Source: Woeseiaceae bacterium (lineage in GTDB: Bacteria > Pseudomonadota > Gammaproteobacteria > Steroidobacterales > Woeseiaceae). Taken from it: 64,000 bases of DNA. Under the pieces are notes generated by a model. That model saw only the letters and a program-made list of their open reading frames with translations, was not told where the DNA came from and did no database searches. Shown piece by piece: positions 24,330 to 54,120 of the stretch (position 1 is the stretch's first letter; each line of letters starts with the position of its first letter). A program made the position numbers and the translations under genes. Location of the stretch: contig JANQLK010000016.1 of NCBI GenBank assembly GCA_028280615.1, forward strand, positions 124,001 to 188,000, in the 5' to 3' direction.

Positions 24330-24496
24330 CTAGCCCGCATCCGTCACCGATTGCGCGGGCCCTCGCTTGTCTTTTGTTCGCACAGGGGTTTTTCCTCAGT
24401 TGGCAATACGGTGAGTATTGCGCGCCTTCAAAAAAACCCCTGTGCGAACAAAATCCTGCCCGATCATCCCGCGAATCGGTGACGGATGCAGGCTAG
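24330..24496. repeat. 167-bp palindromic repeat, full copy 2
   Basis: Same length and layout as the copy at 971-1137: terminal CTAG, near-perfect outer arms, conserved blocks CCTCGCTTGTCTTTTGTT and AACAAAATCCTGCCCGATCA, and the apex TCAGTTGGCAATAC. The inner stem here is GTTCGCACAG (24376-24385) with CTGTGCGAAC (24440-24449). Compared with copy 1 the stem differs at three base pairs, and each change is matched on the other arm (T-A to C-G, T-A to A-T, A-T to G-C). It fills the space between convergent xdhC and tetR, and its right CTAG provides the tetR TAG stop (24493-24495). Confidence 0.92.
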
Positions 24497-25170
24497 CCTT
24501 CCGCGTCAGGCGTCGTCGCGGCACCGTTGCCGGAGAAAAACACGTTCACGATCATGTCGGCGAGCTTGTCGAGCTCCCCTTCGTTATCGAAGTCGATGTC
24601 GCTCGTGCCCTTGATCTCCAGCGCGAGCGCCAGCAGCCCGCCGGCAGATACGCGGACCATGTTGAACAGCAGCGCCGGGTCGCCGGCCGGCGCGATGCCG
24701 ATTTCCTGTAGCTCCTTGAGCGACTTGACGACCTCCGAGTAGAGCGGCCGCAGGTGGTTGTCGATAAGCCAGTCCAGCCGGTCGCTGGGCTTGCTGGACT
24801 CCTGCAAGATGATTTTGTGCAGCGCCGGTTGACGATAGGCGTAGTCCACGTAGGTCTTAACGAACGCGACCGCACGGCCGCGCGGGTCGTGCTCCGGCAC
24901 TTCGGCCATCGCCTTGACCAGCGCAATATTGAACTCGCGGAATATTCGGTCGGCGGCGCTGCGCCAGAGCTGATCCTTGTTCTTGAAGTGATAGGTGATC
25001 AGGGGGTGGTGAACGCCGGCCCGCTCGGCGATATCGCGCGTCGAGGTGCCCTTGAAGCCGTTTTCCGAGAAAGCCTGGGTAGCCGCGTCGAGCAGTTTTT
25101 GCTGGGTGACGACGCTGCGCTGCTGCTGCTTGCGTGCGGGTTTCGGCCGCTCGGCCTCGTAATCGGACAC
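24493..25170 (-). CDS. TetR-family transcriptional regulator
   Basis: A 225-residue TetR-type protein. The HTH is around residues 36-65 (GTSTRDIAERAGVHHPLITYHFKNKDQLW), with a helical ligand-binding domain after it. The N-terminus is basic and Gln-rich (RKQQQRSVV) before the first helix, as in many AcrR/FadR-like members. It stands alone on the minus strand with the TonB fusion gene further down the same strand beginning at 27827; its targets are unknown. Its stop codon is formed by the terminal CTAG of the palindromic repeat, so the element borders or has replaced the gene's natural end. The gap 25171-25259 before its ATG is the only likely promoter region. Confidence 0.88.
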   Translation of the reverse strand: MSDYEAERPKPARKQQQRSVVTQQKLLDAATQAFSENGFKGTSTRDIAERAGVHHPLITYHFKNKDQLWRSAADRIFREFNIALVKAMAEVPEHDPRGRAVAFVKTYVDYAYRQPALHKIILQESSKPSDRLDWLIDNHLRPLYSEVVKSLKELQEIGIAPAGDPALLFNMVRVSAGGLLALALEIKGTSDIDFDNEGELDKLADMIVNVFFSGNGAATTPDAEG

Positions 25171-53248: not shown

Positions 53249-54091
53249 ATGAAAAACCGGAAGATGGAAAAGTCGATCCACACCAAGCTGTCGCGCGACG
53301 ACGACTACACCGGCTACCTCCACCTGGACAGGCTCCTGTCGGCCCAGGTGCCGCTGTCCGATCCCGCGCATCACGACGAGATATTGTTCATCATCCAGCA
53401 CCAGGTGGCCGAGCTCTGGATGAAGCTTCTGATCCACGAGATCGGCCAGGCCATCAGCTACATGCGCGCCGACGAAATGGCGCCCGCGGTCAAGAACCTC
53501 GCGCGGGTGCGGCACGTCCAGAACCAGCTCTACAATCAGTGGGGTGTACTCGACACGCTGACCCCGAGCGAATACGCCGAATTCCGGCACGTGTTCGGCA
53601 AGGCGTCCGGCTTTCAGTCCGCGCAGTACCGGATTCTCGAGTTCATGCTCGGCAACAAGAGCCGGACGATGTTAAAGGTCTACGAACACCAGCCGGAATG
53701 GCATGCGAAGCTCACCCACGCTCTCGCCTCGCCGAGTCTGTATGAGGAGTTTCTCATGCACCTCGAGCGGCAGGGCCTGCCCGTGCCCCGGCGAGCGATC
53801 GACCGGGATTTTTCGAAGATGCGTGACGAAGACGACGAGGTTGTCGCCGTCCTCAAGACGATCTACGAGAACCCGAAGCGGTACTGGACCGAGTACGAAA
53901 GCTGCGAGGCGCTCATGGACATCGCCAACAACTTCCAGTTCTGGCGCTTCCATCATCTCAAGACGGTCGAGCGCATCATCGGCCACAAGCGCGGCAGCGG
54001 CGGTTCGTCCGGCGTGTCCTTCCTGAGGAAGGCGATCGACAACGAGTTCTTCCCGGAGCTTATACGGGTACGCACCGAGATCGGCGAGTAG
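53249..54091 (+). CDS. tryptophan 2,3-dioxygenase
   Basis: A 280-residue haem enzyme that opens tryptophan to N-formylkynurenine. The family marks are TGYLHLDRLLSAQ, DEILFIIQHQVAELWMKLLIHE, the C-terminal WRFHHLKTVERIIGHKRGSGGSSGVSFL and the haem-ligand His within that stretch. I chose ATG at 53249, with AAAGG 8 bases before it; a TTG at 53219 is also in frame. No kynurenine formamidase or kynureninase is nearby. The stop codon TAG is formed by the start of a palindromic mini-repeat. It converges on a MarR gene that is a plausible regulator. Confidence 0.96.
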   Translation: MKNRKMEKSIHTKLSRDDDYTGYLHLDRLLSAQVPLSDPAHHDEILFIIQHQVAELWMKLLIHEIGQAISYMRADEMAPAVKNLARVRHVQNQLYNQWGVLDTLTPSEYAEFRHVFGKASGFQSAQYRILEFMLGNKSRTMLKVYEHQPEWHAKLTHALASPSLYEEFLMHLERQGLPVPRRAIDRDFSKMRDEDDEVVAVLKTIYENPKRYWTEYESCEALMDIANNFQFWRFHHLKTVERIIGHKRGSGGSSGVSFLRKAIDNEFFPELIRVRTEIGE

Positions 54092-54120
54092 CCGGCATCC
54101 GTCACCGATTCGCGGGCTGG
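54089..54120. repeat. palindromic repeat, mini form 2
   Basis: Contains the same core as the mini form at 2525-2554: GCATCCGTCACCGATT followed by CGCGGGCT. Its left TAG is the stop codon of the tryptophan dioxygenase gene. It lies between that gene and the convergent marR gene, which ends 6 bp further on. One stem mismatch distinguishes it from the first mini form. Confidence 0.75.

Follow-up and report, generated by a model that had tools for sequence, protein, structure and literature searches.

Miniature inverted-repeat transposable elements (MITEs) of bacteria are mostly read as decayed insertion sequences (IS) that happen to fold. The HEARO or omega RNA of IscB and the bridge RNA of IS110 are conserved folds that travel on transposable elements, and each adjoins the gene of the nuclease or recombinase that uses it. 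Here we analyze a 167-bp element at positions 24330-24496 of a 64,000-nt stretch of DNA (the window) from a Woeseiaceae bacterium, whose genome (G000) comprises 4.57 Mb in 58 contigs; the window is C29:124001-188000 and all coordinates below are window positions. In our judgment the element is probably a non-autonomous MITE that is moved in trans by transposases of the IS1380 family and carries a conserved, strand-specific structured core. As a transposon it appears to be a MITE, and its apparent novelty is a fold that is conserved, specific to one strand and independent of the terminal repeats.

Set beside MITEs and a putative IS1380 source, the element is alike in having no transposase gene, in its inverted repeats and target duplication and in ends like those of a full-length IS; it differs in that its core is missing from the IS loci tested, is common to elements with different ends and keeps its fold by compensatory change. 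Unlike the HEARO and bridge RNAs, the core travels without a protein gene. ERIC and Correia elements duplicate TA, whereas this element has a 4-bp duplication and a strand-specific covarying core found across a phylum. With ERIC and Correia/NEMIS it nevertheless shares a short length, folding from end to end and a location between genes or at gene ends, as these repeats are outlined in PMC10969869; blastn at E 1e-5 gave no match to the element in a genome collection of E. coli, a species that carries ERIC. QMITE2 of Coxiella burnetii, as presented in PMC5896051, is similar in size (about 150-190 bp) and in having full-size and small versions, and it gives rise to a small RNA, but it makes duplications of 7-11 nt and contains a GTAG REP. 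The REP, REPIN and BIME repeats associated with RAYT are likewise short palindromes at gene ends with paired inverted forms; here, however, the ends are of IS1380 type. When the window was searched against Rfam (4227 families) at gathering score only one tRNA was found, and seven core loci searched at E up to 5 gave four matches, none over a core. The main text of a 2024 review of prokaryotic MITEs does not mention IS1380 (PMC10969869), and the part of the literature that we searched holds no description of the element.

The original prediction, made from the sequence of the window alone, described two copies of a palindromic element, at 24330-24496 and 971-1137, that differ by compensated changes. 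Both sets of coordinates are right, each copy is 167 bp long and the two are identical at 150 of 167 positions. Their inner stems differ at three positions (GTTTGCTCAA/TTGAGCAAAC in the copy at 971-1137 vs. GTTCGCACAG/CTGTGCGAAC in the other), and each difference is two-sided, with pairing kept. The fold of 24330-24496 is beyond chance: its minus strand, the strand kept foldable, reaches -115.3 kcal/mol, whereas 200 dinucleotide shuffles average -52.3 (sd 4.2; z -15). The copy of the other stem type, also assigned to the minus strand, folds at -105.5 kcal/mol on that strand vs. -86.2 on the plus strand. Some blocks that had been taken as unpaired are in fact paired, TTTTGTT with AACAAAA, although conserved unpaired parts do exist and lie within GCCCTCGCTTG, within CCTGC.CGATCAT and in the apical CTC/TC loops. 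Allowing up to 3 mismatches, the window contains 7 occurrences of the end motif CCGCATCCGTCACCGATT vs. 0.2 expected.

The element at 24330-24496 is bounded by CTAG on the left (24330-24333) and on the right (24493-24496), which we read as a 4-bp target-site duplication on the strength of 106 family elements. Inside these lie the left terminal inverted repeat CCCGCATCCGTCACCGATT (24334-24352, plus strand) and the right one (24474-24492, minus strand), which enclose a conserved core of 121 nt (24353-24473, minus strand) that we modeled as R1 and R2. Within the core, the 3' side of a lower internal loop carries the conserved minus-strand motif GACAAGCGAGGG (24360-24371) and its 5' side the minus-strand motif ATGATCGGGCAGG (24455-24467); the inner stem is formed by the arms GTTCGCACAG (24376-24385) and CTGTGCGAAC (24440-24449), and the two sides of an apical internal loop lie at 24396-24403 and 24420-24429, again on the minus strand.

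A BLAST search of the whole genome, which had been proposed as a check, found 12 full copies and 9 more cut by contig ends, with at least three compensated stem types among them (GCTCAAG, GCACAGGG and GCTTAAGAG). Beyond this genome a core of about 122 nt recurs among proteobacteria with different end repeats; the end repeats vary between genomes, and several loop positions of the core hardly vary. Covariance model R1 of the core has matches in 27 of 396 genomes of the order. An exact degenerate pattern picked out 79 stretches in named GTDB genomes, of which R1 confirms 67 and does not confirm 12, and the carriers found by pattern and model include Wenzhouxiangella, Woeseia, Hydrogenophilales, Tepidiphilus, betaproteobacterial metagenome-assembled genomes and Dokdonella immobilis CGMCC 1.7659. 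Model R2, for which 47 diverse cores were used, has matches in 41 of 369 genomes sampled from the class, spread over 32 of 271 genera, and in 39 of 398 sampled from the phylum, each count including G000 itself; 30 of those 39 belong to one family outside the class. The one pattern match in viral contigs, L220, was not confirmed by the model and we took it as chance, and three queries against plasmids gave no blastn match.

For alignment A1 we used 11 of the 12 full copies in G000 together with two from G031, a genome of the same genus. Truncated matches, reverse-strand matches and two further model matches (L129 and L130) were left out of the element collection, and seven elements with cores of at least 130 nt (most with apical insertions) and the outliers L112, L127, L128 and L170 were dropped, giving 88 cores, of which 47 below 93% identity form the first, non-redundant set. 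For the second set L259 was dropped, which left 58 cores, 56 of them non-redundant; these were aligned on sequence alone and have a median best identity of 65% to the first set. Four loci, L198, L164, L136 and L202, have cores of 180-191 nt, which exceed the usual length by about 60-70 nt; the additional bases sit close to the apical hairpin, as though cargo could be accommodated at the apex. L164 (PWLF01000002.1) is filed as Bacteroidales while its element resembles that of Wenzhouxiangella; the contig is possibly misbinned.

The fold is maintained by compensatory change throughout this collection. In the covariation test that had been suggested, two-sided changes are present in 33 of 40 pairs across the 47 non-redundant cores; standard pairs fill 89.6% of pair cells, two-sided changes occur in 296 cells, none of 500 shuffles reaches any of these three values, and sliding the partners lowers pairing to 32-54%. 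Widespread stem variation without compensation, named at the outset as the observation that would speak against the claim, was not seen in these cores. The 56 cores of the second set contribute 1780 Watson-Crick, 238 G-U, 40 A-C and 154 other cells, with 98 two-sided Watson-Crick replacements by parsimony. Covariation exceeds what phylogeny explains: over all 103 cores, the highest value from 60 tree-based null simulations is surpassed by 12 of the 40 structure pairs and by no column pair outside the structure, and 14 of the 40 reach E<0.05 in a tree-based test of all pairs; applied to the first 47 cores only, the latter test is weak, with 2 of 40 pairs below that threshold. In the family consensus the apical loop places GA opposite GA on both sides of two base pairs and the lower loop places ATGATCG..CAG opposite CAAGCGAGGGC; the loops of the folding strand are purine-rich, and G000 departs from the consensus in one of its two apical GA motifs, which is changed on both sides.

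One strand is kept foldable. The folding strand is the reverse complement of the window plus strand, i.e., the minus strand of both window copies, and when single-sided changes in paired columns are read on it, they produce G-U far more often than A-C, by 66 to 24 in the first set (p 1.1e-5) and by 91 to 29 in the second (p 1.2e-8). If a mutation bias were the cause, unpaired columns should be skewed as well, and they are not (55 vs. 57 in the first set, 89 vs. 97 in the second). The first set was gathered with the opposite-strand model and the exact pattern, a bias that runs against the G-U result; the second was gathered with the folding-strand model, which may favor G-U somewhat. G-U makes up 9.5% of standard pairs, and with RNA parameters the folding strand is lower in energy in 102 of 103 cores (mean -56.0 vs. 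-40.2 kcal/mol). Compensation, the strand-specific G-U excess and the conserved unpaired motifs together support the original claim that the folded form matters, as RNA or as single-stranded DNA.

The element also bears the marks of mobility. Its inverted repeats start with CCCG, and 134 of 145 elements with both flanks have inverted ends that match at 15 or more of 24 positions, in a set where a few insertions are counted twice from two records. Of 106 elements, 37 have the same 4-mer on either flank, whereas 2000 shuffles yield 19 on average and 30 at most; this flank set is restricted to elements whose 4-mers resemble CTAG or TTAA at two or more positions. The excess lies at positions 1 and 4 (80 vs. 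56 and 72 vs. 52 expected), and the duplication is therefore a 4-bp NTAN sequence, in most cases CTAG or TTAA; among the full copies in G000, 6 of 12 have identical flanking 4-mers. A TA-only duplication of the IS630/Tc1 type, which was our first reading of the copies in G000, was dropped on the above-chance matches at positions 1 and 4. In the IS1380 family, IS1247 is listed with a 5-bp duplication in PMC3281130.

The ends suggest a link between the element and the IS1380 family. G031 has a homologous core with other end repeats (CCCGGATTATTCATGAAT), and it also has an IS1380-family insertion sequence with CCCGGATTATTCATGAAT-type ends and CTAG on both sides (PF13701, E 4.4e-122); it is the only one of 41 genomes of the genus with PF13701 above cut-off. 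PF13701 is above cut-off in 7 of the 27 genomes of the order that bear the core; among other genomes it is above cut-off in 10 of 18 with the core compared to 2 of 18 core-negative ones (Fisher p 0.012), a non-random comparison in which the positives were picked mainly by copy number (16 of 18 with at least 9 matches) and the negatives were drawn from the top of a listing. IS ends of the CCCG or CCTG type could be read in 10 of the 17 core-bearing genomes with PF13701 above cut-off, at both ends in G031, G158, G306 (two loci), G519, G678, G750 and G879 and at one end only in G658, G926 and G945; in the two core-negative genomes carrying PF13701 such ends could not be read convincingly. Over their first 16 bases the IS ends that were read agree with the ends of miniature elements at an average of 13.0 positions in the same genome, 11.7 in other genomes and 4.0 for random 16-mers, and with ends set by hand the same-genome excess is reached by 9 of 10000 permutations. 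The agreement is 14-15 of 16 in G031, G306, G678, G750 and G879 and 10-13 of 16 in G158, G519, G658, G926 and G945, in several of which it does not exceed the agreement between genomes.

A set of observations weighs against mobilization by IS1380 transposases. PF13701 is not above cut-off in 28 of the 45 core-bearing genomes tested, and seven genomes that do carry it (G055, G075, G084, G089, G446, G764 and G895) show no convincing CCCG or CCTG ends. The IS ends of G658 and G519 are no closer to the miniature element of the same genome than to those of other genomes. G000 itself has no PF13701 match in the profile search, so its transposase is lost, unassembled or too distant, and we therefore infer the enzyme that mobilizes its copies; between the end repeat of G000 and IS ends from other genomes only 8-12 of 16 positions agree. 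In G895 the IS1380 transposase family has 34 matches, of which 17 are full-length genes with almost the same score; the two that were read have other ends (CCTAAATCCTGCAA), and the genome also carries at least 9 cores. L121 and L125 have divergent cores with long GC-rich stems and 5' and 3' end repeats that are mismatched (one end TAGCCCGCAAATCTCACCAAGG), and their ends are possibly half-exchanged.

The comparisons establish, as far as sequence goes, an element that is multi-copy, duplicates 4 bp of its target, has ends like those of IS1380 and can fold on one strand as a long hairpin interrupted by conserved, purine-rich loops. Under the explanation that we favor, a MITE with a structured core, an IS1380 transposase would move the element in trans, and the folded molecule would be an RNA made by read-through or from a promoter of its own. 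This RNA may act in trans for the element or the host, for example by binding a protein, rather than by controlling the adjacent gene; the stems would be free in sequence as long as pairing is kept, and the loops would be the parts that are recognized. By inference RNA seems to us roughly twice as likely as single-stranded DNA, and the share of G-U pairs points to RNA without being proof of it. A broader proposal, to which we give somewhat less than even credence, is that the core represents a phylum-wide family of mobile structured RNA that is the cargo of IS1380-type miniature transposons; end repeats would then have been exchanged between IS lineages while the loops stayed fixed, and a protein recognizing the loops would act in trans. 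A fold that is maintained on one strand across distant proteobacteria while the ends change looks like a selectable trait of its own, and the element offers a case, open to testing, in which a transposon carries a structure as its payload in place of a gene. The two covariance models and a named carrier, Dokdonella immobilis, make inspection of RNA-seq possible.

The folded form may instead be single-stranded DNA, the conserved strand being extruded during replication or transfer and bound by a DNA-acting protein, a possibility that we consider doubtful but deserving of weight. Integron attC sites and the ends of IS200/IS605 elements are recognized as folded single-stranded DNA, and the present element is DNA-mobile. 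The motif STAXI has been discussed as possible single-stranded DNA in PMC2864571. Some results count against a preference for RNA: DNA energy parameters favor the same strand, in 103 of 103 cores, and the G-U preference is as compatible with single-stranded DNA as it is with RNA; a G-U excess is also present in the end repeats (44 vs. 10 in 50 elements, the count being confined to those with clear CTAG-like flanks and arms matching at 70% or more), which therefore cannot serve as a neutral control. The core, however, gave 0 matches at E<=5 in the 11 loci tested that hold IS1380 genes or fragments, and an IS1380 element thus appears not to depend on the fold for its movement. The folded strand is C-rich in 57 of 95 loci (p 0.012), a weak replication-strand bias that runs against the sense expected for an exposed lagging-strand template, and the bias is inconsistent, with 10 negative and 9 positive skews in G000. 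Moreover, G-U at the observed share seems high for a DNA hairpin by general expectation.

Unlikely, in our view, is a cis-acting element of mRNA, i.e., a terminator, an RNase target or a stabilizer of the 3' end of the adjacent gene, a role demonstrated for Correia and ERIC elements. Many copies adjoin gene ends and the CTAG at the end of the window element gives a stop codon, and RNase processing of such MITEs is reported in PMC10969869. A strand-specific function in cis should nevertheless bias the orientation of insertions, and it is unbiased: eight of 162 insertions lie in a called open reading frame (ORF), and for the other 154 the 5' gene runs with the folding strand in 60 cases and against it in 69, and the 3' gene in 69 and 69, as counted with a simple ORF caller, the remainder having no gene within 400 bp. 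A role in the mRNA of a neighbor is unlikely because the orientation to both neighbors is unbiased.

Very improbable is a passive hairpin MITE, palindromic by origin, whose arms were equalized by quasi-palindrome template switching and whose fold has no function. Long palindromes are corrected and deleted by template switching, and the short end-only copies described below resemble deletions between short direct repeats inside the palindrome; in G000 the joints of these copies fit such deletions, GCGGG being one example of the short repeats involved. Such an origin predicts equal numbers of G-U and A-C on either strand, contrary to the skew found in both sets, and it leaves unexplained the unpaired positions that are conserved between sets as far apart as these. 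The original prediction had named quasi-palindrome repair as the process that might by itself account for the paired changes; as sole cause it is contradicted, because neither the preference for one strand nor the conservation of the loops follows from it, and the passive hairpin is largely refuted by the strand asymmetry.

Hardly tenable is an origin as a repeat of the REP/REPIN type mobilized by a RAYT tyrosine transposase, which we rejected: the short copies look like REPs and the genus does have Y1 transposase genes (PF01797 in 26 of 41 genomes), but PF01797 has 0 matches in G000 while 5 of 14 control genomes are positive, the repeats beside PF01797 genes of the genus differ in sequence from the element (20 loci), and the element has a 4-bp duplication and IS1380-like ends. 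Many of the Y1 genes in other genomes of the genus (at L063-L067, L069 and L071-L078) are flanked by inverted repeats of their own, for example of the GTGACAGTGACC or GGGGACATTCT types, which are unlike the element.

Besides the full copies there are short ones, of about 30-46 bp, that consist of end repeats alone. Two lie within the window, at 2522-2554 (CTGG-CCCGCATCCGTCACCGATTTGCGGG-CTAG) and 54088-54120. The end-only palindromes with CTAG-like flanks, about 26-46 bp in length, comprise this window pair and L024, L025, L039, L050, L052, L054 and L056, and in G031 the loci L082, L084, L087, L090, L091 and L095; of the loci read in G031, seven are short and two full. These short copies may be remnants or independent mobile units. 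At gene ends the target CTAG or GTAG can supply a stop codon: the TAG of the element's right CTAG (24493-24496) stops a TetR-family ORF on the minus strand (24493-25170), and an ORF ending at 54091 takes its stop from the GTAG (54088-54091) of a short copy.
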